A program made the translations under genes and the position numbers. From assembly GCF_016887565.1 (NCBI RefSeq), contig NZ_CP069396.1, forward strand, positions 5,190,001 to 5,254,000: a DNA stretch of 64,000 bases. Direction: 5' to 3'. Of this stretch, positions 14,984 through 58,643 are shown one piece after another (the stretch's first letter is position 1; the number at the start of each line of letters is the position of its first letter). This DNA is from Archangium violaceum. Its GTDB lineage: Bacteria; Myxococcota; Myxococcia; Myxococcales; Myxococcaceae. The notes under the pieces were generated by a model. The model was not told the origin of the DNA and did not search any database. It saw nothing but the letters and a program-made list of their open reading frames with translations.

Positions 14984-15079
14984 CGGTAGGACAGAGGAAT
15001 CGAACCTCCCAGGGACATGTCTCCATGCCCCCCACCGGTTTTGAAGACCGGGCCGGCCACCAGGTCCGGAGGTCCTACC
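14984..15079 (-). tRNA. selC: tRNA-Sec (anticodon TCA)
   Basis: The minus strand folds into a selenocysteine tRNA. An 8-bp acceptor stem GGTAGGAC/GTCCTACC (longer than in normal tRNAs) comes with an anticodon stem-loop CCGGT-CTTCAAA-ACCGG with TCA at 15042-15044, a long extra arm (GGGGGCATGGAGACATGTCCC) and a T-arm GAGG-TTCGATT-CCTC. G at 14984 is the discriminator base; CCA is not encoded. It is charged with serine, converted to selenocysteine by SelA and delivered to UGA codons by SelB. No selenoprotein or sel gene is in this window. The 96-nt length is typical. Confidence 0.93.
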
Positions 15080-20692: not shown

Positions 20693-22069
20693 TCAGCCCC
20701 CGGTGGGCTGGCTGTGGCGGGCCTCGGGGGTGGCCTCCAGATCCCTCGCCGCCATGTAGACGACGTTCCGGGTGCCCTTCTTTCCCCGGTACATGGCCCG
20801 GTCGGCCAGGTCCAACAGCGTGGCCTTGTCCCGGGTGTGCTCGGGGAAGCTGGCCACGCCGATGCAGGTGGAGAGCGACATCGACTGTCCCTCGCGCGCC
20901 AGGAAGCGGTGGTTCTCCACCGTGCGCCGGATGCGCTCGGCCACCTTCAACGCGCCACCCGAGTCCGTGCCTCGCAGCAGCACCACGTACTCGTCCCCGC
21001 CGTAGCGCACCGCCACGTCGTGGTCTCGCACGCAGCCCTTGAGCACGCGCGCCATCTCCACCAGCACCTGCGAGCCCACCAGGTGCCCGTGCGTGTCGTT
21101 GATGGTCTTGAAGTAGTCCAGGTCCAGGAACAGGAGGCTGAAGACCCCCTGCGTCTGCTGGGCGCTCTTCAGCTCGCGATCCAGCACCAGGTGCAGGTAG
21201 CGGGTGTTGAAGAGGTGGGTGAGATCGTCCAGGTAGGCCAGGTCCTCCACCTCGGCGATGCGGCCCAGGTTGCGCAGGGCGAGCGCCAGACAGCGCGCGA
21301 GGAAGCTGGTGGCCTCGGCGATGCCCTCGGGCGGCGAGCCGGGGAAGAGGAGCACGGCGTGTCCGAGCAGCGCTTCCCCGTCCAGCGCGGGCACCACGAG
21401 GGCTCGCGGCCAGGGGCCCGGCACCTCCTCCAAAACTCGCGTCTCCCGGGACGTCCCGAGGTGCGGTGTCAGGAAGGGGACCAGGGACGCCCGGAGCGCG
21501 CCGGCCACGCCCTGATCGCCCAGCTGCCGCGGACGACCCCCGCTGTCGTGCTCGAACAGCATCACCGCGCCGGCCGAGCCCATGGCCAGGAACGACGCGC
21601 AGGCGGTGTCCGCCAACCGGCTCCGATCGAGCGTGGTGGAGATGCGCTGTCCTGTCTCCAACAGGGACACGTACCGGCGCAGCGCGGCGTTCTCCCGCAG
21701 CAGCTCGCGCGTGGCGAGCGCCCGCTGCACCGCGTGCTGGAGCACCTCCGGCGCCACCGGCTTGACGAGGTACTCGGCGGCCCCGCTCTTGATGGCGCGC
21801 ACCGCCGGGTCCACCTTGTCCAGGCCGGTGATGACCACCACCTCGATGCCCGGGTGGTGCTCCTTCGTGTGGCGCAGCACTTCCATCCCGTCACCGTTGG
21901 GGAGGATGAGATCCGTCACCACGGTGTCGTAGCGGCCGTCGGCCAGCGCCGTCCTGGCCTCCTGGATGGTGGAGACGGCGGTGACCTCGTGCCCCACGGC
22001 GCGCAGGTAGTCGCCGTAGAGGGTCTGGGCCAGCTTCTCGTCATCCAACAGGAGGATGCGCGCCATCAC
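20693..22069 (-). CDS. Response regulator diguanylate cyclase (REC-GAF-GGDEF)
   Basis: This 458-residue cytoplasmic protein has a receiver domain with acidic pocket DDE and phospho-Asp53 (VVTDLILPNGDG), a GAF-like middle region (about 135-270) and a C-terminal GGDEF domain. The active site RYGGDEY is intact (357-361), so it should make c-di-GMP from two GTP. The inhibitory I-site RDHD lies exactly five residues before the GGDEY motif, which predicts product feedback. It converges with encC with a gap of 10 bases and diverges from the CheW-like gene before romR. Its upstream kinase is not identified. Confidence 0.92.
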   Translation of the reverse strand: MMARILLLDDEKLAQTLYGDYLRAVGHEVTAVSTIQEARTALADGRYDTVVTDLILPNGDGMEVLRHTKEHHPGIEVVVITGLDKVDPAVRAIKSGAAEYLVKPVAPEVLQHAVQRALATRELLRENAALRRYVSLLETGQRISTTLDRSRLADTACASFLAMGSAGAVMLFEHDSGGRPRQLGDQGVAGALRASLVPFLTPHLGTSRETRVLEEVPGPWPRALVVPALDGEALLGHAVLLFPGSPPEGIAEATSFLARCLALALRNLGRIAEVEDLAYLDDLTHLFNTRYLHLVLDRELKSAQQTQGVFSLLFLDLDYFKTINDTHGHLVGSQVLVEMARVLKGCVRDHDVAVRYGGDEYVVLLRGTDSGGALKVAERIRRTVENHRFLAREGQSMSLSTCIGVASFPEHTRDKATLLDLADRAMYRGKKGTRNVVYMAARDLEATPEARHSQPTGG

Positions 22070-41588: not shown

Positions 41589-41690
41589 AGTCAATTCGTT
41601 CAAGGCTGAGCACGCACAATCCGTGTGGGTCCGCCGTGGCCCAACAGACCCTGGGGTCTCCTCCCGTCTGCGCGTAGACTTCCGGACATC

Positions 41691-46891
<5,201 letters not shown>

Positions 46892-46903: not shown

Positions 46904-47887
46904 ATGGACGCCCCCCGCTCCCCCCGGCGCACCGTTCGCTTCCTGATCGCGCTCGCCGCCATCCTGGCGGCGCTGCCCCTGGGCTATTTCCTCTTCCTCC
47001 ACGAGCCTCCTCCGGCCGCCGCTCCTCCGCCCGCGCCCGTCGTGGAGCGGGAGGCTCCGCCGCCCCAACAGCGGCCCCCGGAGGCGCAGCGCGTGCTGAA
47101 GCTGGAGGAGATCCACGGCACGGTGGAGGTGCGCCGCGGCAATGGGGAGTGGCACGCGGTCCGCCCCGGCGAGTCCCTGCACCCCTCGGACGCGGTGCGC
47201 ACCCTAGAGGGCTCCTACGCGGTGCTCGTCAACGGCGAGACGGTGGAGGTCCGCATGGAGGCCGGCACCGAGGTGTCCATCGAGGCGCTCACCGACACCC
47301 TCTCCCGCCTCATGCTCGCCAACGGTATGACGACGACCCGCGTCAAGCCCGGCACCCGGCAGACCTTCGAGGTGCGGGCCGCCGGCAGTGACGCCGTGGC
47401 CCGGACCGAGGGCGGTCGCTTCACCATGAGCAACAACGGCGCGGGCACCGTCGCCGTGGGCACCCAGGAGGGCGAGGTCGCCTTCATCGGCCAGGGCAAG
47501 GTCGTCATCGTCCGCGCCGGTCAGCAGTCCATCGTCCGCCCCGGCCGCGGGCCCTCGGATCCCACCCCCATCCCCACCAGCCTCCTGCTCAAGATGAACT
47601 GGCCCGCCCGCCCCACGCTCACCAGGCGCCAGATGGTCGTCTCCGGGCAGACCGAGCCCGGCAGCCATGTGGACGTCGAGGGACGCATCATCCCCACGGA
47701 CGAAGAGGGTCGCTTCTCCCAGACCGTCCCCCTCGGGGAGGGTCGCAACACCGTGCGGGTCCACGCCCGCTCCGTGGGGGGCCTGCGCCAGGAGCTGAAA
47801 CACGAGCTGAACGTGGATACGACCCCTCCCAGCCGGGTCACCGTCGACCCGGGGATGTGGAATGACCCACGTCCGGACAGCCAATGA
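46904..47887 (+). CDS. FecR-domain membrane-anchored protein
   Basis: This 327-residue protein has one N-terminal hydrophobic segment (FLIALAAILAALPLGYFLFL) and a proline-rich linker, then a FecR-type domain (EIHGTVEVRRGNGEWHAVRP, GESLHPSDAVRTLEGSYAVL, IVRAGQQSIVRPG). The C-terminal part (WPARPTLTRRQMVVSGQTEP and after) looks like an Ig-like or carboxypeptidase-regulatory beta domain. FecR-like domains in myxobacteria are often surface or signalling modules without a sigma factor nearby; none is seen here. It starts 12 bases after the kinase gene and may be in its operon. Confidence 0.8.
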   Translation: MDAPRSPRRTVRFLIALAAILAALPLGYFLFLHEPPPAAAPPPAPVVEREAPPPQQRPPEAQRVLKLEEIHGTVEVRRGNGEWHAVRPGESLHPSDAVRTLEGSYAVLVNGETVEVRMEAGTEVSIEALTDTLSRLMLANGMTTTRVKPGTRQTFEVRAAGSDAVARTEGGRFTMSNNGAGTVAVGTQEGEVAFIGQGKVVIVRAGQQSIVRPGRGPSDPTPIPTSLLLKMNWPARPTLTRRQMVVSGQTEPGSHVDVEGRIIPTDEEGRFSQTVPLGEGRNTVRVHARSVGGLRQELKHELNVDTTPPSRVTVDPGMWNDPRPDSQ

Positions 47888-47971
47888 TAGCAGGCTGACA
47901 GACGAGCGGCGGGGCAACGGGTGGCCGGGCCCGCGAATTGCACGGTCTCAGGTGCTGAGAGTCGTCCTTGT

Positions 47972-48047
47972 ACAAGGGCAATCCCGGGCGAAAGCCCAGG
48001 TGCGCAAAGCCGTGGGGCCCGAGGGATGGCCGGCCATGGCTGCCGTG
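47972..48047 (+). promoter_or_regulatory. Probable c-di-GMP-I (GEMM) riboswitch
   Basis: The conserved order of the GEMM-I aptamer is visible. AAGGGCAAT is followed by a hairpin with arms GGGC/GCCC and a GAAA tetraloop (47986-47997), then GCGCAAAGCC, then a second helix region with GGATGGCC and GGCTGCC. The G in the AGGG block expected to contact c-di-GMP is kept, which favours c-di-GMP over cGAMP. It is about 100 bases upstream of the next gene. A hairpin with arms CGGGAA.ACCC/GGGT.TTCCCG (about 48087-48121) could be the expression platform. Confidence 0.75.
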
Positions 48048-48147
48048 GGAGGTGGCGCGGGTTGGCGCCTGGGGGGCTGAGCTCGGGAAAACCCTTTGTC
48101 GTGAGGATGGGTCTTCCCGCCCGAAGTACCACCGGAGGTCAGCCACG

Positions 48148-49887
48148 ATGCTGCGGACGCCCATCCTGCTTGTGTGCCTGCTGCCCGCGCTGGCCCTTGG
48201 CCAGACCGTCGGGGCGCCGTTGCACGGCAAATCGCTGGTCATCGACAACGGACCTGGAGACCAGACGGACCCCCACGTGAGCGGTCCGGTGGTGGCCTAC
48301 ACGCAGCGGCTGAGCATCAGCAGCAGTGAGATCCGCTACCGCGACGTCCTCACGGGCCAGGCTGGGGTGATCCCCAACGAGGGAGGATTCGACTCCAGCG
48401 CCGACGTCAGCGGAGACACGGTGGTCTTCACCCGCACCACCGGCGGCAACCGCGTCTACCGCTTCAATGTTCGCAAGGGGGAGACGGCGGAGGAGCTCGC
48501 CCCCCGCACGGGAGCGGACCGGCGCGCCGTCGCCATCGGCAAGCAGACGGTGGCGTGGCAGGAGCTGGGCTACACCGCTGGCTCCAGGCCGGCGGAGATC
48601 TTCGCCTACCGCATGGACTCGCCGGCGGCGCTCACCCTGCTGACGGATGACCTGCGCCTGGACAGGACGCCCGCCGTCAGCGCGGATGGGTCGGCGGTGG
48701 TCTGGGTGAAGTGCGCCACCAGCAGCGACGGGTGCGACGTCTGGTCGGCTCGCGCGGTCGAGGGGGGCTACGAGGTCACTCAGCTCACGGGGACGGAGGG
48801 CGAGGAGTCCACGCCCGACAGCAACGGCGAGGTGGCGGTGTACGCCATCTCGCGCACCGTCAATGGTGTGTTGGAGTCGGACATCGCCTGGCAGCCGGTG
48901 GGGGGCGGCCAGGCCCGGGTCCTCCCGCTGCCGGGAACGGACTCCAACCCCAACATCAGCGGCCCGCTGATCGCCTTCGAGCAGAAGGATTCCTCCGGCA
49001 CGACCTCCAATGTCGACGTCATGCTGTACGACCTGCGCACGCAGACGTACTACCGCCTCACCGACACGCCGGAGAGCGAGACGCTCAGCGACATCAGCGT
49101 GGAGCCGGGGGGTCTGGTGCGCGTGGTGTGGGCGGTGCGGCAGGACGGCGAGCTCAACGTCTACGCCTACGTATTCCGCCTGCCGACGGACTGCGCGTCG
49201 ACACCGACCATCGAGAATCCGGCCGCCGTGTGCTCCCTGCCCGGGGCCCGGCCGCTGCTGGGCACCCTTCAGGTGACCCGACCCTCGGGGGCCTCGGAAG
49301 TGGTCTCCCTCCAGCTCGAGGCCCGGGGCACCGGCGTGCTGTGCGTGGACAACGGCTACAAGGGGACGCCGGCCACCGCGGGCTGGGTGTGGCTCGGCCC
49401 GGGGCTGCACGTGGGACCCGAGTCCTTCGGGCTCGAGGTGCCGGGCGTGGCCAAGGCGGTGCCGCTGCAGGGCGGCTTCAAGCTGTCCGCCCGGGCCGAT
49501 GGCGTGACCGGCAGTGCCTTCCAGGTGCGCGTCTACGGTGAGCCGTCGTGCGATGTCGGGCTGGGGGACGATTCGACCAAGGAGGGGGGGGAGCTGCGCT
49601 ACGGCCAGCTCGTGCCCTCCGTGCCCCTGGGCTCCGGTGGGGCGAAGGGACGTCTGCCGCGCACCTTCGTGCCGAGCGGGTACGAGGGGCTGGCGAAGGC
49701 GTCGGGCAGTGGCTCCGGCACGGGCGGCTCGGGGCTGGTGGAGGGCGGCGAGGCTCCGCTGAAGCCGTTCCCGGGCTGTGGCGTGGGGGGCGGCCCGGTG
49801 TCCCTGCTGGGCGTGTGGCTGCTGGCCGCGGTGTCGTTCCGTGACAGGACCGCCCGGACTCGGGCCCGTGCCACCGGGCGTCGATAG
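48148..49887 (+). CDS. Secreted beta-propeller-like protein with MYXO-CTERM-type tail
   Basis: This 579-residue protein starts MLRTPILLVCLLPALALGQT (signal peptide). Residues 25-350 contain repeated blades of the TolB/WD40-like type (VSGPVVAYTQRL, VSGDTVVFTR, ISGPLIAFEQKDSSG), and a beta-rich region follows. The C-terminus has a Gly/Ser linker, then PGCGVGG, a hydrophobic stretch and a run of Arg. This is the layout of a MYXO-CTERM sorting signal, where Cys is lipid-modified for surface display. The gene lies under the predicted c-di-GMP riboswitch and starts a group of four surface genes. Confidence 0.75.
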   Translation: MLRTPILLVCLLPALALGQTVGAPLHGKSLVIDNGPGDQTDPHVSGPVVAYTQRLSISSSEIRYRDVLTGQAGVIPNEGGFDSSADVSGDTVVFTRTTGGNRVYRFNVRKGETAEELAPRTGADRRAVAIGKQTVAWQELGYTAGSRPAEIFAYRMDSPAALTLLTDDLRLDRTPAVSADGSAVVWVKCATSSDGCDVWSARAVEGGYEVTQLTGTEGEESTPDSNGEVAVYAISRTVNGVLESDIAWQPVGGGQARVLPLPGTDSNPNISGPLIAFEQKDSSGTTSNVDVMLYDLRTQTYYRLTDTPESETLSDISVEPGGLVRVVWAVRQDGELNVYAYVFRLPTDCASTPTIENPAAVCSLPGARPLLGTLQVTRPSGASEVVSLQLEARGTGVLCVDNGYKGTPATAGWVWLGPGLHVGPESFGLEVPGVAKAVPLQGGFKLSARADGVTGSAFQVRVYGEPSCDVGLGDDSTKEGGELRYGQLVPSVPLGSGGAKGRLPRTFVPSGYEGLAKASGSGSGTGGSGLVEGGEAPLKPFPGCGVGGGPVSLLGVWLLAAVSFRDRTARTRARATGRR

Positions 49888-49940: not shown

Positions 49941-51854
49941 TTGCCAGCGCTGCTGCTGGTCGCCACCGCGGCCTCGGCGGACACGCTTGACATCCTGGGC
50001 CCCTCCGCGGCCGTGCCACCCGAGGGCTTCTCCATCGCCCTGGTGCGCCGGGATGCCACCGGTGTGCCCGTGTCCGCGGAGGGGCTCTCCGTGTCCGCGA
50101 GCGGGGCTCGGCTCACCCCCGGGCCCGAGCAGCCGCCGTTGCGCACGTTCCTGGTCATCCCCGAGCCGGGCGCGCGGGAGGTGCGGGTCAGCGCCGCGGG
50201 AGCGGGGCTCGGGGCCGAGGCCCGGTACGTGCTGGGGCCGCCGGTCACCCAGGTGTCGCTCGAGTTGGATCCTCCCGCGCCGGTGAAGGGGCGGGACAAG
50301 GAGGCTCGGCTCACGGTGCGGATGCTCGGCGCGGACGGCTCGCCGGAAGACTCCGGGGCGCCCCCCGTGTTGCGGGCCAACGTGGGCCGGGTGGAGGGGC
50401 TCGCGCGTACCGGGCCCGGTACCTGGCGGGCCCGCTATGTGCTGCCGGACACGCGCTACCCGGAGGTGGCCATCCTGGTGGCCCTCTCGGCGTGGCCCCA
50501 CCCGCAGTCCATCCATGGGGCCTACGGCAAGGTGCTGGTGCCGCTGGCCACCTCGGTGGAATTGCCGGGCCGTACCGAGCCGAACGCGCAGCTCTCCGTC
50601 ACCATCGCCGGCGCGACCTTCGGGCCGGTGAAGGCGGCACCGGACGGGCGTTTCCGGGTTCCCGTCATCGTTCCCCCCGGCCACCGCTTCGGCCAGGCGC
50701 GCGCGGTGGACGCGGCGGGCAACGTGCGGCGCTCGCGGATGGATCTGGCGCTGCCTGCCACCGACGGGCTGGCGTGCGTGCTCAACCCGCAGCGGCTCCC
50801 GGCGGATGGTGTCTCCCGGGCTCGCATGCTGTGCGCCACCAGTGATGCCTTCGGCCAGCCGGTGCTGGATGCGCGGGTGTCGGCCACGGCCCGTCATGGT
50901 GCTTTGCGCGGCCCCACGCGCGCCGAGGGCGGTCTGTTCGAGTGGATCTACACCGCTCCGAAGATGCAGCCCTCGGAGCCGGATCGCTTGGTGGCCCAGT
51001 GGCCGGAGCGCGGGGCCAGCTCGCGCGAGGAGCTGTCGCTGCAACTCGTGCAGGGGCCCGTGGCGAGCGTCTCCCTGTCCCTGCCCGAGCCGATGGTGCA
51101 CCTGGGCTCGACGGTGGCCGTCACCCTCACCGCGCGGGACGCCCTGGGCCAGCCGAGGCCCGGGGCCCTGGCGGAGGTGGAGTCGTCGGTGGGCACGTTC
51201 GGCCCGGTGCGCGAGGAGGCTCCGGGGGTCCTCACCAGCACCTGGACACTGCCGCCCGAGGGCCCGTCGGGTGAGACGGTGGTGAGAGCGGGGGCGTATG
51301 GCCCCGCCGGCACGGAACCGGCGCGCTTGAGCATCTGGGTGCAGCGGAGCGAGCTGTACGTGGGCGTGACGGACCTGGTGGGCCTGCCGGTACCGGCGCA
51401 AACCTTGCGCGTGGGCGACGAGGAGTGGGTGACGGGGGCGGGAGGCGCGGTGGCGATCGGTTCCTTTCGCCCGGGCCGGGTGGAGGTGGTGCATGGCCAG
51501 TGGCCCGGCCTGCGGCAGACGGTCTACGTGGTGGCCGAGGGCGGGCCGGTGTTCCCGCTGGGGCGGGCGCTCGCACCGGCCACGGCGGAGCGGGCGGTGC
51601 GACTGGCGCCCTCCGTGCCGGTGAACGTGCGGCTGAAGGTGGAGGGCTCGCGCGTCACGTTCTGGGTGGAGGACGCCTCGGGCCGGCTGCTGGAGGGGCG
51701 GAAGGTCCACATCGCGCTGTCCGCGGGCGAGCGGAGTGAGGTGGCGGAGAAGGAGGGCCGCGGCAGCTTCGTCGTGAAGCATGAGGGGCCGGTGAGCGTG
51801 TCCGTGGCGGACGTGGCCACCGGCGTCACCGCGCTCGCCGAGGTGCGGCCGTGA
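49941..51854 (+). CDS. Secreted Ig-like repeat protein
   Basis: This 637-residue protein starts at TTG (PALLLVATAASADTLD), a short signal peptide. It consists of several beta-sandwich segments of the bacterial Ig/invasin type (VTQVSLELDPPAPVKGRDKE, LNPQRLPADGVSRARMLC, VASVSLSLPEPMVHLGSTVA, then VTLTARDALGQPRPGALAEV). No transmembrane anchor or enzyme motif is seen. The next gene starts at GTG 51851, overlapping its stop, so the product probably functions together with the large barrel protein, perhaps as an exposed adhesin or assembly factor. Confidence 0.7.
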   Translation: MPALLLVATAASADTLDILGPSAAVPPEGFSIALVRRDATGVPVSAEGLSVSASGARLTPGPEQPPLRTFLVIPEPGAREVRVSAAGAGLGAEARYVLGPPVTQVSLELDPPAPVKGRDKEARLTVRMLGADGSPEDSGAPPVLRANVGRVEGLARTGPGTWRARYVLPDTRYPEVAILVALSAWPHPQSIHGAYGKVLVPLATSVELPGRTEPNAQLSVTIAGATFGPVKAAPDGRFRVPVIVPPGHRFGQARAVDAAGNVRRSRMDLALPATDGLACVLNPQRLPADGVSRARMLCATSDAFGQPVLDARVSATARHGALRGPTRAEGGLFEWIYTAPKMQPSEPDRLVAQWPERGASSREELSLQLVQGPVASVSLSLPEPMVHLGSTVAVTLTARDALGQPRPGALAEVESSVGTFGPVREEAPGVLTSTWTLPPEGPSGETVVRAGAYGPAGTEPARLSIWVQRSELYVGVTDLVGLPVPAQTLRVGDEEWVTGAGGAVAIGSFRPGRVEVVHGQWPGLRQTVYVVAEGGPVFPLGRALAPATAERAVRLAPSVPVNVRLKVEGSRVTFWVEDASGRLLEGRKVHIALSAGERSEVAEKEGRGSFVVKHEGPVSVSVADVATGVTALAEVRP

Positions 51855-54800
51855 AGGCGGCCGGGTGGGGGGTGTGCCTGCTGCTGCTGCTGCTCCCGGA
51901 CATCGCGCGGGCGCAGCTGGCGCGGGTGGAGCCACCGGAGCTGGGCGCGGCCATCGTCGGACGCGTGTGCCGGGACCTGGACGGGGATGGGCGCTGCGCT
52001 CCCGAGGAGCCGGGGCTGCCCGACGTCCGGTTGGTGCTGGCCACCGGCCGCGAGGTGCGCACGGACGCCCGGGGCCGCTACCACTTCGCGGAGGTGGACG
52101 CGCGCGGTCCCGACGTGACGGGCGGCGTGCACCTGCGGCCGGGCCGGCAACGGCTGCGGTTGGATGCGCGGACGCTGCCTCCGGACAGCGAGGCCGCTCC
52201 CGAGGCCGTCACGGTGGAGGTGCCCTGGGCCGCCATGGTGCTCCAGGACTTCGCGGTGCGCACGAAGGCCGAGCCCACCACTCCGCTGTCACGCTCCTAT
52301 GAGGTGTCGCCCCCCTCGGCGGCGGTGGTCCCGGGCGGAGTGGACTTCCTCGTGGCCGGGAAGGCCTCGCCGGGGGACGTGGTGACGGTGGGGAGCATTC
52401 CGGCGGAGGTGGACGCGGAGGGTTCCTGGCGCGTGCGCGTCCGGCTCGAGCCCGGGGAGAACGTGCTGCCCATCTCCGCCCTCGGGACCGGGAACACCCT
52501 GCGCCTCTTCCGCCAGCGCATCGACGTGGTGTCGCGCGAAGGGAGCCTGCTCGTCATCCCCCGCGAGCCCGAGCCCGTGGGAGCGTTCCGGTTGCCGGGC
52601 GAGCGTGGGAAGCCCGTGGCCAGCGGCACCTCCTCGCTGCTCGCCGAGTTCCCCGCGGGCACGCGCATCCGCGCGCCCCGGGGCGAGGTGACGGTGGGGC
52701 CGGAGGGGACCGCGCTGGTGCCGCTGGTGCTCGTGCCGATCCACAACCCGGTGGACCTGGTGGTGCTGCGTCCCGGCGAGCCGGCGCGGACGGTGATGCT
52801 GACGTTGCTGGCGGAGCCGCGGCCTTTCGCGGTGGGCCTGCTGGACGTGGAGGCCACGCTGTCGCCCGTCACCGGGGACTTCCGGCTGCGAGGGCGGGGC
52901 GCTGCCCATGGCGAGGCACGCCTGGGCCCCTTCTCCCTGACCGGCGAGCTGGACTTGCGAGACACCGACGTGGACACCCTGCGCGAGCGGCCGCTGGCGG
53001 ACTGGCTGCGTGTCCGCCTTCCCCGGTTGGATCGGGCGCCGGATCCGGATCTGGCCATTCCCGAGTGGGGGGACACGTCCGTGGGCCTCACGCCGAACCC
53101 CGCCGAGAGCCGCCTGCGGCTGGAGGTGCGCCATGAGAAGTTCGGCCGGGTGGGTCTGGGGACGTACCGGGCGCTGGAGGCGGAAGGGGAGGTGGGCCGC
53201 TACCACCGGCCGTTGTTCGGTCCCTTCGCGGAGCTGGCCGCGAATCTGGGGCAGCTGCGCGCGGGAGTGAATGCCTTCGCCGGAGGGCTGGCGGATCCCA
53301 CGCGGTCGCTCTCCGCCGTGCCCGCGTACGAGGAGCTGCGCACCACGGGCGGCAGCCTCTACTACCTGGGCTCGGGGTCGGTGGCGGAGGGCTCGGAGCT
53401 GCTGCGCGTGGAGCTGCGCGACGGCGTCACCGGCCTGCCGTTCGCCGAGCGGCACCTGGTGCGAGGCAGGGACTACGACATCGACTACACGGCGGGCCGC
53501 ATCCTGCTCGCGCGCCCGCTGTCCCTCATCGCCGGACAGGCGCTGCTGCGCACGGATCCCCTGACGGCGGCACCGGAGCCCGTCCTCTGCGCGCAGTACG
53601 CCGTGCTGACGGTGGCCTCCCCGACCGACACCGCCGGAGGCGAGGCCTGGGCGGAGTGGGGGCGCAACCGGGTGTCCCTGTCCGCCGTGCGCGAGCAGCG
53701 CGAGGGGCGCCCCTACGTGCTCCTCTCCGGGCACGCGTTCGCCAGGCTGGGCGGCTATTCGCTGTGGGCCGAGGTGGCCCGGAGCCAGGGCTCGGCGGTG
53801 CTGCCGGAGCTGTTCGGGGTGTCGGACGACGGAGGCCTCACCTGGCTCCGGCCGGACGAGGAGTGGGCACCGCAGGGAGGAGATGCCCTGGGGCTGCGCC
53901 TGCGCGGGCCGGGACTCTTCGGCAGGGGCGGCGTGGACGCGGCCTTCCGCCGGCGCACGGCGGGCTACTCCGATGGAACGCACACGGACACCCGGTCCTT
54001 CCGTCAGCTCTCCCTGCGCGCGGTGCAGCCGCTGGGCGCCTTGCACCTGAAGCTGCTGGCGGATGACCGGCTCTCGGCGGATCCGCGGTGGCCCTTCGCG
54101 GATGTGTCGCTGGGGGCGCGCACGCTGGGCGTGGGTGTGGACTACGAGAGGGGGGAGTGGGGCGTGGGCGTGGAGCTGCGTGACGCCAGCCTGCGGGCCC
54201 GCGACGCGACCGGCGAGGGTCCATTGCTCGAGGGAGGAAGGACGTCGGCGGGGATCCACGGGCACTACTCGGTGAACGAGTGGCTGCGCGTGTCGGCCGG
54301 CCACCGGCAGGCGCTGGTGCTGCGCGGCGAGGGCCCGGGCCGGGTGGATGACTCCTTCACCTCGGCGGGCGTGGACGTGGGGGTGCGTAACGATGCCATG
54401 GTGGGCGTGCGCGGCGGCTGGGGACCCGAGCTGGGACCGCTGGCCTGGGTGCAGGGCACGTGGCGCCGGGGCGAGGACGTCTACTACGGCAGCTACTCGG
54501 TGGACGTGGATGGGCCGGACTTCGGCGCCGGCCGCGCGGTGAGCGGGGCGCACACGGACCTGTCGCACGGGACGAGCCTCTTCGTGGAGGATGTTGCCGC
54601 GCATGACGCCACCGCGGTGCGTCTGGCGAGGGCGGTGGGCTTTCGGCAGACCCTCTTCGGCGCGCTGAACGTGAGCGCGCGCTACGAGCGGGGTGTGCGC
54701 TCTCCCCTGGACGTGCCGGACCCGCTGCGGCGCGACGTGGCGAGCCTCTCCGGGCAGCTCGTCCTGGAGCGCTTCCGGGCCGACGGGCGCGTGGAGCTGG

Positions 54801-55447
54801 GCTTCGCGCGGGGCGTGCCGGTGCGCGGCTCGACGGAGCCGATGGATCGCATCCAGGCGGTGATGGTGCTCGCGGCGGAGGCGGTGCTGCGCGAGGACCT
54901 GACGATCTCCGGGCGGATGAACTACAGCCGCTCGTATCAGCGGGAGACGCGGCAGGCGGAGGCACGGCTGCTCGAGGGCTATGCGGCACTGGCCTGGAGG
55001 CCGGGGCCGTTCCTGCTGGTGGCGCGCTACGGGCTGACGCGCGAGCTGCTGCCCGGCGAGCGCGCCGCCTTCGGGGAGCGAGCCCAGCAGATCATTTCAC
55101 TGCTACCGGCGGTGCGTCTGGGGGATCGCTTCGCGCTGGCGGCGGGGCTGCATGTGGGGCGGAGCAACCGGGGCGATGTTGCGATATGGGTAGTGACCAG
55201 CTCGCTGCGTCCTTCGGTGCGAGTGGTGGACGGGGTGGAGGTGGCGGTGGAGGCGGCGCTGCGTTCGGTGGCGCCCGAGGGCGACGATGCGTTGGGTTCT
55301 CTACGTGGCGAGGTGGCGTACCGGGTGAACGAGCGGTTGCGTGTGGCCGCTGGCTATACGCTGCTGGGGTTCACCGGGACGGGCTTGACGGAGGAGGCAC
55401 GCGATGGTTCCGACAGGCTCTATCTTCGGGCGGAGCTGGCGTACTAG
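51851..55447 (+). CDS. Large outer-membrane barrel protein with SdrD/CarboxypepD-like domain
   Basis: This 1,198-residue protein has a signal peptide (VCLLLLLLPDIARAQ). Near residues 35-115 lies an SdrD-B-like domain with a calcium-type loop (CRDLDGDGRCAPEEPGLPDV). Ig-like modules follow. From about residue 340 there are dozens of amphipathic strands with motifs such as RGRDYDIDYTAGRILLARPL, ending SDRLYLRAELAY, so a large beta-barrel inserts in the outer membrane. The start overlaps the preceding gene (GTGA) and the stop lies within the next gene. It may be a translocation or display pore for the neighbouring secreted proteins; that role is inferred. Confidence 0.75.
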   Translation: MKAAGWGVCLLLLLLPDIARAQLARVEPPELGAAIVGRVCRDLDGDGRCAPEEPGLPDVRLVLATGREVRTDARGRYHFAEVDARGPDVTGGVHLRPGRQRLRLDARTLPPDSEAAPEAVTVEVPWAAMVLQDFAVRTKAEPTTPLSRSYEVSPPSAAVVPGGVDFLVAGKASPGDVVTVGSIPAEVDAEGSWRVRVRLEPGENVLPISALGTGNTLRLFRQRIDVVSREGSLLVIPREPEPVGAFRLPGERGKPVASGTSSLLAEFPAGTRIRAPRGEVTVGPEGTALVPLVLVPIHNPVDLVVLRPGEPARTVMLTLLAEPRPFAVGLLDVEATLSPVTGDFRLRGRGAAHGEARLGPFSLTGELDLRDTDVDTLRERPLADWLRVRLPRLDRAPDPDLAIPEWGDTSVGLTPNPAESRLRLEVRHEKFGRVGLGTYRALEAEGEVGRYHRPLFGPFAELAANLGQLRAGVNAFAGGLADPTRSLSAVPAYEELRTTGGSLYYLGSGSVAEGSELLRVELRDGVTGLPFAERHLVRGRDYDIDYTAGRILLARPLSLIAGQALLRTDPLTAAPEPVLCAQYAVLTVASPTDTAGGEAWAEWGRNRVSLSAVREQREGRPYVLLSGHAFARLGGYSLWAEVARSQGSAVLPELFGVSDDGGLTWLRPDEEWAPQGGDALGLRLRGPGLFGRGGVDAAFRRRTAGYSDGTHTDTRSFRQLSLRAVQPLGALHLKLLADDRLSADPRWPFADVSLGARTLGVGVDYERGEWGVGVELRDASLRARDATGEGPLLEGGRTSAGIHGHYSVNEWLRVSAGHRQALVLRGEGPGRVDDSFTSAGVDVGVRNDAMVGVRGGWGPELGPLAWVQGTWRRGEDVYYGSYSVDVDGPDFGAGRAVSGAHTDLSHGTSLFVEDVAAHDATAVRLARAVGFRQTLFGALNVSARYERGVRSPLDVPDPLRRDVASLSGQLVLERFRADGRVELGFARGVPVRGSTEPMDRIQAVMVLAAEAVLREDLTISGRMNYSRSYQRETRQAEARLLEGYAALAWRPGPFLLVARYGLTRELLPGERAAFGERAQQIISLLPAVRLGDRFALAAGLHVGRSNRGDVAIWVVTSSLRPSVRVVDGVEVAVEAALRSVAPEGDDALGSLRGEVAYRVNERLRVAAGYTLLGFTGTGLTEEARDGSDRLYLRAELAY

Positions 55448-58400
55448 CGGCGGGTGGGGCGCGCGCCTGCGGCTCCTGGCCGCGGGGTGGGTGGCCTGCC
55501 TGGTGGTGCTGGTCTCCGCGAGGGCGCATGCCGAGTGGCACGCGGGCCCCTCGCTGAGCGGGACACCCAACCACGTGTTGGACGTGTGGGGGCCCGGGAA
55601 GTTCTCGGTGGGCTATGGACTGGGCGCGTACCTGTTCCTGGACGAGCAGCCCCCGCGCCAGCTCACGTTGAACGTGAGCTCCCCATCGGTGGGCACCTAC
55701 TACCAGGAGTTCACGGGCTGCCTCGTCACGTTCTTCAGCGATTCGCGAGGCGAGCGTCGAAGCATCCGATGGGACGACACGTACGGGTGCGCGGTGGGGC
55801 GTGATACGGCCTTGCTGCCGGGGACCGCACCGCTCGTCCTCCGGGTGAAACACACGGAAGGGGTCGCCGTCGCGGTCGCCTATGACGATTCCGCGAACGG
55901 CGGCGTCTTCATGTCGGACTCCAGCATCTACGACAACAAGCCGCTCACCCTGATGCACGGAGTGCAGGACTACCTCGTCGGCTCTCTCGGAGTGGTGCGG
56001 GTGGGCGGCAGGACCTACGCGCTCGTGAGCTCCAACAGCAACCAGGCACAGGTCTACTGGGTCGACAGCGACAAGCGCAGCACGAATCAGCTCCAGAACG
56101 TGTTGCCCACGGTGGGGATCGCGCAGGCCATCGAGCTGTTCGCCGCCGGCAGCCCGGAGCTTCCCCATGCCGTGGTCGGCACGCAGTCCGCGATCCTTCA
56201 GGGTCCGCTCCGGAACATCGACACCCCTCTGCCCACCAGTGACATCCGGCCGGTGTGGAGGTTCGACGCGGGGGGCCTGGGGGTGACCGGCGTGTCCATG
56301 AACGTGGATGCGGCGAACACGGACGCCTACGGTCATGGGTTCGGGATGGCCGTGGTGGGGCTGCCGGGGGGTCGCTACGCGGTGGCGAGCCCGGTGCCCA
56401 TGCCCGATGCCACGCGGGCGGGCACCCGCTGGATGTTCAGGGAAGACATTCCAGAAGGCATGAAGCTGGCCCCCTTGAGTCAGGTCGCCTGTACGGGCGC
56501 GAACTACTGCGTCGTCACCGCCTCCAAGGCCAACACGGGCAATCTCTTCATCTACACCAATGCCGCGCGCCCCCAGTTCCCGGCGGGCGCCATCGTGGAA
56601 CTCGACGAGGGCCAGAGCGGCCAGTTCTCCTTCGCGGCGACCGACCCGGATGGAGATCCGGTGCTGACGCTGGCCGCCACGCCGACCCAGGGTGGGGCGC
56701 AGTGGTCCGCGCGGCAGGTGGACGTGGGAGCCGCTGGTGGCGCCTGGGTGCCGGGGGATCCCGTCGTGATGAACGTCACCGCGGGCAACGTCTGCGATTA
56801 TGAGCAGGTGGGCTCCCTGGAGCTCCGCGCCTCGGATGGCTGGGCGGAGCATGACGTCACCCGGGGCATCCCGGTGTTCGTGAGGCACACGCGGCCTCCG
56901 GACGCGCCCGAGGTGAGCTTCTCCAAGACGGAGCTGCGCGCGGGTGAGCAGGAGCCCCTCGTTGTCCGGGTCCGCGAGCCATACGCGGGCTGCCCGCTCT
57001 CCGGATTCCACTGGAGCGCGCGGCCGATGCCCTCGGGGCTGGTGGGCCCCTCGTTGACGCAGGATGGGAGCAGCGCCGCCACGCTCACCGCTCCGCCCAC
57101 GCTCTGCTCGGCGGATGGCGCGGACTTTCCCTTCCAGCTGATGGTCGAGGACAACAAGGGGCTGACCAGCTCCGTCCCGAGGGTGTTCCAGGTGCACGTG
57201 GCGCCCTGGGGCAAGCCGAACGCGGTCTTCGGGGCGAGCGATGGGGGCGTCATCATCGCCGGTCAGTCGCGGGAGCTCTCGCCTGGCGGGAAGACGCACG
57301 AATGTCTGGGCACGAGCGGCTTCCCGGGCGTGGAGACCACCTGGCGCGTGACGTCCGACAGGGAGCTCTCCGAGGGGGGCATCTCGCTGCAGGACGCCGA
57401 CGGCAACCCGGTGGCGCTGGGGGCCGAGGTGCGATCGCCCAGGCTGACGGCGAAGACGACGGATTGCGTCGATACGACCCACCTCACGTTCACGGCCGTC
57501 AACCACCTGAAGGGGACGAGTGACATCACCGGGCCGGCCTCGGAGCAGCGCGTGACGGTCGAGACCTCGCTGGCACCGTTCGACTCGGGCAAGCTCGAGC
57601 TCGGGGTCCACGAGGTGTCGGAACCCTCGGGCGATCTGCGGGTGGATGTGGGCTCGAACCTCAACTGCCCCGCGCGCCGGGGCCTGCGCGCCGACCTCCA
57701 GGTCTCCCAACCGGGCGCGGGTGGGCGCTCGGTATCCGGACAGGTGCCCATCCAGGGCTCGTGGACGGTCTCCCTGGGAGAGCAGTGCCTGGGTGGACGC
57801 CTGCAATTGAAGGCCTCGATGGCGGACGACGCGGGCAGCCGCTCCCCCGAGACGGTGACGGAGCTGGTGGCTCCCCCGGTACGTGCGGGAGTGGAGCCCC
57901 TGCCAGCGGGCACGGCCCTGGTGGCCGCGTGCGGCCAGCAGGCGAGCACCACGCTGACGCCCACCTTCCCCAAGGGCTTCTGCCAGTCGCCGGCCCTCAC
58001 CTGGCGTCAGGTGTCTGGCCCCGAGTCCACGCAGAGCACGAATCCCGATGGCACCGTGTCGGTGTCCACGAAGGAGACCGGGTTCGACACGCTGGTGGGC
58101 AGGCCCGTGGTGATGGAGGTGACGGCGAGCGCGGGCCCGGAGAGCCAGACCACGGTCCAGCACACGCTGCCCATCACCGTGGAGCCCTTCGTGAAGGTGC
58201 AGCGCCGCGCCGAGGTACCAGCCGCCTCGGACACGGGGCTCGTCGGTGTCTCCGTCGATCTCACCAACACCACCGGGTGCGACGTGAATGACGTGAGCTA
58301 CGAGGAGCGTCTGGAGGGGCTGACGTACGTGGAGGGGAGCGCGCAGGTCCAGGGCCAGGACGCGGGGATGGAGGTCTCCTGGAACGAGGGGGTGCTCTCC

Positions 58401-58643
58401 GTGAAGGGCCTGTCGCTCGCGGGAAATGGCACCCGGAGGCTCACCTACGTGGCGCGCCCGCACCTGGTGGGCTCGCGCCGCATGGAGGGTGTGGCCCGGT
58501 TGCGCGACGTGCCCATCTCCATCAGCGACAAGCCCGGACCGCGGGTGGACGTCTCCGGCTGTGGCTGCACCAGCTCGGGTTCCGGCCCGGTGGTGTTGGT
58601 GCTCGGGGCCCTGGTGGCGGCCATGCGGCGCCGCCGCCGGTGA
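55404..58643 (+). CDS. Surface protein with MYXO-CTERM sorting domain
   Basis: This 1,079-residue protein starts MVPTGSIFGRSWRTSGG; the signal segment is at 21-43 (RLLAAGWVACLVVLVSARAHA). The start overlaps the previous gene by 44 bases. The body is beta-rich with Ig/cadherin-like units (ELDEGQSGQFSFAATDPDGD is typical of such domains) and a DUF11-like repeat near the end (VSVDLTNTTGCDVNDVSYEE). The C-terminus CGCTSSGSGPVVLVLGALVA and then AMRRRRR is a clear MYXO-CTERM: Cys pair, transmembrane helix, Arg cluster. It should be processed and exposed on the cell surface. Confidence 0.85.
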   Translation: MVPTGSIFGRSWRTSGGWGARLRLLAAGWVACLVVLVSARAHAEWHAGPSLSGTPNHVLDVWGPGKFSVGYGLGAYLFLDEQPPRQLTLNVSSPSVGTYYQEFTGCLVTFFSDSRGERRSIRWDDTYGCAVGRDTALLPGTAPLVLRVKHTEGVAVAVAYDDSANGGVFMSDSSIYDNKPLTLMHGVQDYLVGSLGVVRVGGRTYALVSSNSNQAQVYWVDSDKRSTNQLQNVLPTVGIAQAIELFAAGSPELPHAVVGTQSAILQGPLRNIDTPLPTSDIRPVWRFDAGGLGVTGVSMNVDAANTDAYGHGFGMAVVGLPGGRYAVASPVPMPDATRAGTRWMFREDIPEGMKLAPLSQVACTGANYCVVTASKANTGNLFIYTNAARPQFPAGAIVELDEGQSGQFSFAATDPDGDPVLTLAATPTQGGAQWSARQVDVGAAGGAWVPGDPVVMNVTAGNVCDYEQVGSLELRASDGWAEHDVTRGIPVFVRHTRPPDAPEVSFSKTELRAGEQEPLVVRVREPYAGCPLSGFHWSARPMPSGLVGPSLTQDGSSAATLTAPPTLCSADGADFPFQLMVEDNKGLTSSVPRVFQVHVAPWGKPNAVFGASDGGVIIAGQSRELSPGGKTHECLGTSGFPGVETTWRVTSDRELSEGGISLQDADGNPVALGAEVRSPRLTAKTTDCVDTTHLTFTAVNHLKGTSDITGPASEQRVTVETSLAPFDSGKLELGVHEVSEPSGDLRVDVGSNLNCPARRGLRADLQVSQPGAGGRSVSGQVPIQGSWTVSLGEQCLGGRLQLKASMADDAGSRSPETVTELVAPPVRAGVEPLPAGTALVAACGQQASTTLTPTFPKGFCQSPALTWRQVSGPESTQSTNPDGTVSVSTKETGFDTLVGRPVVMEVTASAGPESQTTVQHTLPITVEPFVKVQRRAEVPAASDTGLVGVSVDLTNTTGCDVNDVSYEERLEGLTYVEGSAQVQGQDAGMEVSWNEGVLSVKGLSLAGNGTRRLTYVARPHLVGSRRMEGVARLRDVPISISDKPGPRVDVSGCGCTSSGSGPVVLVLGALVAAMRRRRR

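Follow-up and report, generated by a model that had tools for sequence, protein, structure and literature searches.

The window, that is, the whole analysed stretch of 64,000 nucleotides, carries on its forward strand a conserved group of four genes, preceded by a FecR-type neighbour, a promoter-like element and a leader with its own ribosome-binding site:

46904..47887, + strand, FecR / glucodextranase-B protein, conserved upstream neighbour, ending about 40 nt before the promoter
47927..47942, + strand, sigma-54-like promoter GGGCCCGCGAATTGCA, score 0.88, 0 of 300 shuffles as high
48134..48139, + strand, ribosome-binding site GGAGGT, at -14 to -9 of the ATG at 48148
48148..49887, + strand, TolB-like beta-propeller protein, first operon gene, with an N-terminal hydrophobic signal
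49941..51854, + strand, Ig-like (invasin D3 / Big_1) protein, start codon uncertain
51851..55447, + strand, 1198-aa predicted outer-membrane beta-barrel protein (structure model)
55404..58643, + strand, MYXO-CTERM protein (TIGR03901), last gene of the conserved group

The preliminary description had placed a sorted propeller protein, an Ig protein, a huge outer-membrane barrel and a MYXO-CTERM protein behind the leader, and the gene products largely agree with it. The first protein is a propeller with a TolB-like fold, its structure model (mean pLDDT 78) matching TolB best (Foldseek E 4e-10, TM 0.32 by query), in agreement with a weak TIGR02800 match; the word "sorted" was not confirmed, since no sorting-signal model matched, although by eye the C-terminus, comprising a Cys, a hydrophobic stretch and an Arg-rich end, resembles a sorting signal. 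The second is an invasin-D3 Ig protein, and the third, at 1198 residues, is predicted to form a beta-barrel beginning at about residue 320 (mean pLDDT 78). The latter is assigned to no specific barrel family, given that Foldseek TM scores by query of 0.10-0.21 in the rows listed amount to general resemblance, and the VIA search returned Z scores of 11.5-12.4 common to porins, ushers and others. The fourth protein matched TIGR03901 at 20.7 bits (cut-off 20). Taken from the N-terminal signals, the barrel and the MYXO-CTERM match, a surface location of the assembly appears likely.

Two further features of the window were recorded. A hybrid histidine kinase (41625-45023, + strand), encoded two genes upstream of FecR, combines three receiver domains with a degenerate GGDEF domain (AGDDF) at its C-terminus, and could sense c-di-GMP instead of acting as a cyclase. 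A tRNA-Sec gene lies at 14985-15079 (- strand, 73.2 bits), so that the organism probably makes selenoproteins.

Promoter and translation start

The promoter element was scored against a sigma-54 consensus, and the predicted leader start lies about 11 nt beyond it. The other four scored loci of the window genus have a sigma-54-like element 24-25 nt before the aptamer as delimited by the Rfam match (scores 0.76-0.81, p 0.017-0.057), as does genus g20 at the same place (0.76, p 0.053). In g19, g4 and others, upstream sequences read by eye show TTGAC-17/18-TAGACT-like (sigma-70-like) elements there instead, and the promoter scan returned hits of this type in L138, L027, L135 and L048. With a promoter of either type just upstream, RNA synthesis would start immediately ahead of the aptamer. 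Comparison of g1 and g20 with g19, g4, g42 and g43 suggests that the promoter changed from sigma-70-like to sigma-54-like in the lineage of the window. A longer TTG frame of the first gene, running through the leader, was considered and rejected as superfluous given the ATG at 48148 with its GGAGGT.

Identification and anatomy of the aptamer

A covariance-model search identified a c-di-GMP-I (GEMM-I, RF01051) match at 47967-48047 on the + strand, scoring 36.6 bits where the gathering score is 35, with E 0.0016 in the 64-kb window and 7.9e-5 genome-wide; no second match at E <= 10 was found anywhere in the 13.2 Mb genome. The aptamer had initially been recognised from an AGGGCAA block, a GAAA-capped hairpin and GCGCAAAGCC, all of which are present within 47926-48147, and the search against the Rfam GEMM-I family that had been proposed as its check thus came out in its favour, with a score above the family cut-off. 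The 100 nt from the Rfam match to the ATG contain GGAGGT, placing the aptamer in the 5' leader of the gene, and a GEMM-I class riboswitch ahead of a surface-protein operon is well supported. The preliminary reading, by which c-di-GMP would directly set expression of a cell-surface assembly, is partly supported as a whole; the atypical P3, the leader element and the probable OFF direction described below go beyond it. The parts of the aptamer are as follows:

47965..47979, + strand, aptamer 5' strand: P1 5' side 47965-47971, J1/2 with G19-G20 at 47976-47977, G21-C22 at 47978-47979
47983..48000, + strand, P2 hairpin, GAAA loop at 47990-47993
48008..48041, + strand, compact P3 of 12 pairs, with a GG bulge and an 8-nt loop at 48020-48027
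48045..48049, + strand, P1 3' strand GUGGG, pairing with the 5' strand mostly through G-U pairs

The ligand-contact residues G20, A47 and C92 (Vc2 numbers, positions named in the available text of PMC11218506) are present as G 47977, the A in GCAAAG and C 48043, in a register counted by hand from the alignment to the Rfam model. Across 20 aligned rows of relatives, no variation is seen in AAGGGCAAU (G20 included), in the GAAA loop or in GCGCAAAG. The P2 loop is thus GAAA in 20/20 rows, and four of the seven P2 pairs have changed on both sides. P1 has G-U pairs at three adjoining positions in 16-19 of the 20 rows, and two pairs at the base of P3 are broken in 7/20 and 10/20 rows, g19 accounting for six in either case. 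P3 is short, and the consensus tetraloop receptor was found in neither the Rfam alignment nor the 20-row alignment, the receptor positions being gaps in the former and absent from the latter; several positions of the 8-nt P3 loop are nearly invariant, and P3 may hold a receptor of another kind.

With type 1 GEMM-I (RF01051; Vc2, Cd1, Bc1) the locus shares the three-helix aptamer with its GGGCAA / GAAA / GCGCAAAGCC core, the G20, A47 and C92 positions and the placement in the 5' leader of an envelope gene. It differs in that type 1 combines a GNRA loop with a receptor, whereas the window keeps GAAA without a consensus receptor in P3, and in the three conserved G-U pairs of P1 in its lineage. 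Type 2 is defined by a GYRA loop and no receptor (PMC11218506, available text); the window resembles it in lacking the consensus receptor but has GAAA rather than GYRA. The combination of a GAAA loop with no consensus receptor therefore fits neither subtype exactly, and the window aptamer is a known riboswitch class in variant form.

Conservation, linkage and natural losses

Within the order, 145 genomes were covered by the Rfam search, which at E <= 0.1 found matches in 54 of them (18 above the cut-off), one in each except G084, which has six. A propeller homologue lies directly 3' on the same strand at 49 of the 59 aptamer loci, corresponding to 49 of the 54 matching genomes; of the other ten loci, G084 contributes five as additional copies, and G013, G014, G019, G026 and G039 contribute one each. 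The six GEMM-I aptamers of G084 (L002, L031-L035) comprise two with A20 and four with G20, and five are not ahead of a propeller gene. A lineage model, R1, was built from the 20 rows of relatives, which as training rows match it by construction; at E < 1e-8 it recovered the locus once each in 53/145 genomes, missing G087 and G039, both listed by the Rfam model. The propeller-first arrangement was also found through R1 in G090 and G139, neither of which the Rfam search had listed.

Reading of 9.7 to 14 kb in 20 genomes showed propeller, Ig, barrel and MYXO-CTERM homologues in that order in 17; of the remaining three, one, at a contig end, had the first three genes and two had none. Some of the 49 syntenic loci have little upstream sequence; a FecR homologue was seen there in 37. 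Genus g19, probably Myxococcus, has the aptamer in 27/27 genomes, 22 of them under the Rfam cut-off, so that annotation at that cut-off would miss these 22. Relatives retrieved with the propeller protein include L060, an Archangium sp. MAG contig. Five loci were fetched from f11, outside the class of the window: L153, L154 and L156 repeat the succession FecR, aptamer, propeller, so that the linkage may predate the order, while in L155 the aptamer was not located by motif and L157 gave no propeller hit. P1 looks stronger and canonical in L153, L154 and L156.

Losses have also occurred. G045, of the same genus as the window, keeps the operon (barrel 89% identical) and a near-identical leader, from which about 90 nt at 47949-48041, corresponding to the aptamer, are missing; its X region, described below, differs. 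Seven g5 genomes (of 16 in the search), G080 (g7) and G083 (g8) have neither aptamer nor propeller gene at the locus, and their operon starts with the Ig gene. By eye, the propeller is kept without an aptamer in the other four g7 genomes read, in G042 (g2) and in G021 (f3), and what is left of the aptamer in the four g6 genomes examined has decayed. The switch is thus dispensable, being missing or decayed in these relatives.

These data bear on whether the window aptamer is a chance match in GC-rich sequence or a degenerate relic. The Rfam score, only 1.6 bits above the cut-off, would suit either. For chance, we see practically no room: among 20 aligned relatives the 28 proposed pairs are formed in 91.9% of cells, compared with 28.9-42.5% when the partner is slid by 1-3 columns, and nine pairs show compensatory changes, with 22 cells altered on both sides, values matched by shuffles in 3/500 and 0/500 cases, respectively, for a structure drawn partly from the very sequences tested, which favours it. 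Pairing and position are kept in about 50 genomes, and the chance match is refuted by these comparative data; the GEMM-I aptamer at 47967-48047 is real, since the lineage model recovers the locus across the order and the helix pairs are lost on sliding. A riboswitch relic no longer functional in the species of the window is very improbable. The decay seen by eye in g6 and the absence from g7 genomes and G045 speak for it; against it stand the 101 bits scored in the lineage model, of which the window is a training row, the compensatory changes in the helices and the retention of the aptamer within the window genus, where four of five further genomes have it.

A leader segment complementary to the aptamer 5' strand

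When the leaders were compared by reading, a segment about 25-60 nt past the aptamer, here termed X, was found in many lineages to complement the aptamer 5' strand, including G20-C22. The paired sequences differ in letters by lineage, as in CUGAUCAGGGCAC with GUGCCCUGAUCGG in L017, CCUGUACAAGGG with UCCUUGUGCGGG in L055 and UUCAGGGCA with UGCCCUGAG in L004, and positions 14-17 vary between lineages along with their partners, from A-U to C-G at 17 and from C-G to U-A at 16. In the window the segment is:

48092..48111, + strand, anti-aptamer segment X, 16 pairs, -17.5 kcal/mol, 1.7% of 300 zone shuffles as low

Duplex tests covered 53 of the 59 aptamer loci (L002, L031, L033, L034, L035 and L059 were left out). 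For the accessibility, energy, 3'-strand/hairpin swap and 11-genus swap tests, X was taken as the best duplex; L001 and L023 are exceptions, with X set by eye at the conserved position. The two-state energies, the 3'-strand/hairpin swap and the 11-genus swap additionally left out L011, L025, L006 and L018, which by reading have no usable X; dropping these four favours X, and the 53-locus swap test kept them all. In the swap tests, cognate duplexes were compared with partners exchanged between genera. Over 53 loci in 15 genera, cognate duplexes averaged -19.9 kcal/mol versus -17.7 kcal/mol for swapped ones (p <= 0.009 across 200 draws, each taking a single locus per genus). Over 49 loci in 11 genera the median p was 0.006 for the whole leader (0 to 0.093) and 0.002, with a maximum of 0.019, for positions 24-70 (the zone) alone, whereas the 11-genus test gave no signal for the aptamer 3' strand (median p 0.51), P2 (0.78) or the leader outside the zone (0.78). 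The definition of X makes the X-masked control of this test partly circular; the position-based control is not. X covaries with the aptamer 5' strand across genera, and the 3' strand and P2 do not.

Single leaders are less uniform. When each leader is compared with its own dinucleotide shuffles, 23 of the 53 loci pass at <= 10/200 and 30 fail, the window among them: over its whole leader the best 5'-strand duplex lies elsewhere than X and is no better than chance (92/200 shuffles). The 1.7% obtained for the window holds for the zone where relatives carry X, which was picked after inspecting those relatives. Within the zone, X is no better than chance in L023 (p 0.34), and L037 gave p 0.06. The zone registers of L028 and L030, shifted by a bulge or a wrong first match, were not used, and the zone figure for L013 was set aside, as the zone cuts its X; over the whole leader, 15/200 shuffles were as good as the L013 duplex. 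The 5'-strand figures for other-family loci count the P1 3' strand in the target and have no bearing on X. In f3, the loci L004, L013 and L015 carry a related aptamer whose P2 loop is not of the GNRA type; it has the same sort of 5'-strand complement, weaker in L013, and the conserved gene behind it (at least 438 aa, MSVKHDK...) is unrelated.

An alternative partner, the P1 3' strand with the 5' arm of the hairpin enclosing X, gave good pairing singly in g4, g9, g13, g16 and g31 and was rejected after failing the swap test (median p 0.74). Cd1 and pilM, as described in the available text of PMC9262584, are alike in that the aptamer competes with a downstream fold and P1 serves as the switching helix; there the downstream strands take the aptamer 3' strand, whereas in the present leaders it is the 5' strand, with its ligand-binding J1/2, that covaries. 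Within the literature searched, the leader element X is in this respect new, and unlike the 3'-strand switches of that text.

Direction of the switch

The reading that we favour, and to which we would assign about an even chance, is that a GEMM-I cyclic-dinucleotide riboswitch would act through X as a ligand-OFF switch on the four-gene surface operon. Transcription would start just before the aptamer. With no ligand, X would pair with the unpaired J1/2 strand (AAGG) and then displace the weak, G-U-rich P1 and the G21-C22 pairs; with X occupied, no downstream hairpin would form (in g3, the ribosome site would stay uncovered) and the operon would be expressed. With ligand bound, G20 and its neighbours would be held in the pocket and X left free, a hairpin or a block of the ribosome site would form, and expression would fall. 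We infer both this order of events and the OFF direction.

The structures available for such an output vary among leaders. In the window, X is enclosed by a hairpin:

48085..48118, + strand, hairpin GGGAA...UUCCC / ACCC...GGGU enclosing X, no U-tract behind it

X also lies within a hairpin in g19, g4, g31 and others. By eye, U-tracts follow the leader hairpin in L023, L027 and L032, as well as in the f8 genomes G138 and G139. Consensus scanning, restricted to uninterrupted stems with loops of 3-8, confirmed a U-tract terminator in G139 alone; the leaders of the window, of L048 (g19) and of L027 yielded no intrinsic terminator, and none was called at the by-eye hairpin of L138. By eye, the competition that can be read in the f8 leaders is with the P1 3' strand, which likewise points to OFF. 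All six g3 loci have X paired with the SD/start region (fraction 0.25-0.67). Pairing of X with the 5' strand would prevent both the X hairpin and this ribosome-site pairing in g3. A simple ribosome-site model for all genera was rejected on inconsistent accessibility shifts: the SD/start region is more open with X held in only 6 of 11 genera, and the window's own ribosome site shows no clear accessibility change between states. For the window's own leader the OFF output step is weakly supported.

Forced two-state folding gave genus means that lie close together, -85.4 with aptamer and platform apart and -84.8 with the 5' strand bound to X, the gap in single loci ranging from -19.1 to +11.4 kcal/mol. 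In g9, g13 and g24, which have the clearest U-tracts, the X-bound state is 7.6-11.4 kcal/mol less stable, so that the hairpin could win there without ligand, and these energy differences lower our confidence in the OFF model.

Weighing direction and ligand

The natural ligand of the window aptamer is probably c-di-GMP, to judge from G20. G occupies position 20 in 48 of the 49 syntenic aptamers, the window included, and A20, the hallmark of GEMM-Ib (cGAMP), was not found in the window aptamer, which has G there; the orthologous aptamers of both f8 genomes, G138 (L018) and G139, have A20. The GEMM-Ib cGAMP riboswitches of Geobacter share the fold, and the two f8 orthologues stand at the same operon with A20, but the window and nearly all its relatives have G20 where the Geobacter riboswitches have A20.

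c-di-GMP commonly raises surface adhesion genes, and a genuine GEMM-I c-di-GMP riboswitch could instead be built as an ON switch, with ligand freeing the ribosome site or averting premature termination. The window has no visible terminator, and by eye the freed 3' arm of its hairpin could pair with the ribosome site; the greater computed stability of the hairpin state without ligand in the U-tract genera g9, g13 and g24 points the same way. For known members of the class, the available text of PMC9262584 gives OFF, the direction favoured here, for Cd1 (transcriptional, C. difficile) and Vc2 and presents pilM (G. metallireducens) as a cGAMP ON switch of the same class, and the review PMC12564702, in the part available, classes Vc2 as activating. 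In the readable outputs, however, namely the g3 block and the U-tract hairpins of L023, L027, L032, G138 and G139, aptamer formation frees an OFF structure (partly by eye), and we regard the ON direction as rather unlikely.

Somewhat less probable again is that the natural ligand is 3',3'-cGAMP, or that both dinucleotides serve; cGAMP is nonetheless a serious alternative, above all in f8, where the operon's aptamer has A20 in both genomes. A20 is more widely linked to cGAMP preference. A REC-GGDEF protein in the window (20693-22069, - strand), 26 kb from the riboswitch, has Ser at the Hypr position and GGD, the Hypr signature (Ser for Asp plus GGD) being that of PMC6456294 (available text). 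Of 22 GGDEF matches in the genome the pattern could not read nine; Ser/GGD occurs in 2 of the 13 distinct domains that it could read, the second copy lying elsewhere in the genome (L090). M. xanthus produces cGAMP in vivo (PMC8844925), and position 20 is a selectivity factor, not a hard filter (PMC9262584), according to the portions available of both papers. Against cGAMP weigh the near-universal G among the syntenic aptamers and the association of cGAMP preference with A20, as for G20A-GEMM-I in the available text of PMC6274999. Returning to the favoured OFF switch, a joint reading in which the platform would invade the ligand-binding 5' strand, with unpaired contact residues as toehold, and in which c-di-GMP and cGAMP would have been swapped at position 20 within one family, is put forward tentatively and as rather unlikely in its entirety. 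Were the 5'-strand invasion true, ligand and leader would vie for identical nucleotides in a myxobacterial GEMM-I lineage.

Significance

In myxobacteria, c-di-GMP and cGAMP serve in both motility and development. By title or abstract, the literature searched yielded no RNA receptor for either dinucleotide in myxobacteria, and the word riboswitch is absent from the available text of the M. xanthus cGAMP paper (PMC8844925). The locus is a direct candidate for an RNA receptor with a named output, one surface-protein operon. The aptamer-less sister genome, the genomes without aptamer and first gene, and the two A20 genomes constitute natural experiments on the direction of the switch and on its ligand.
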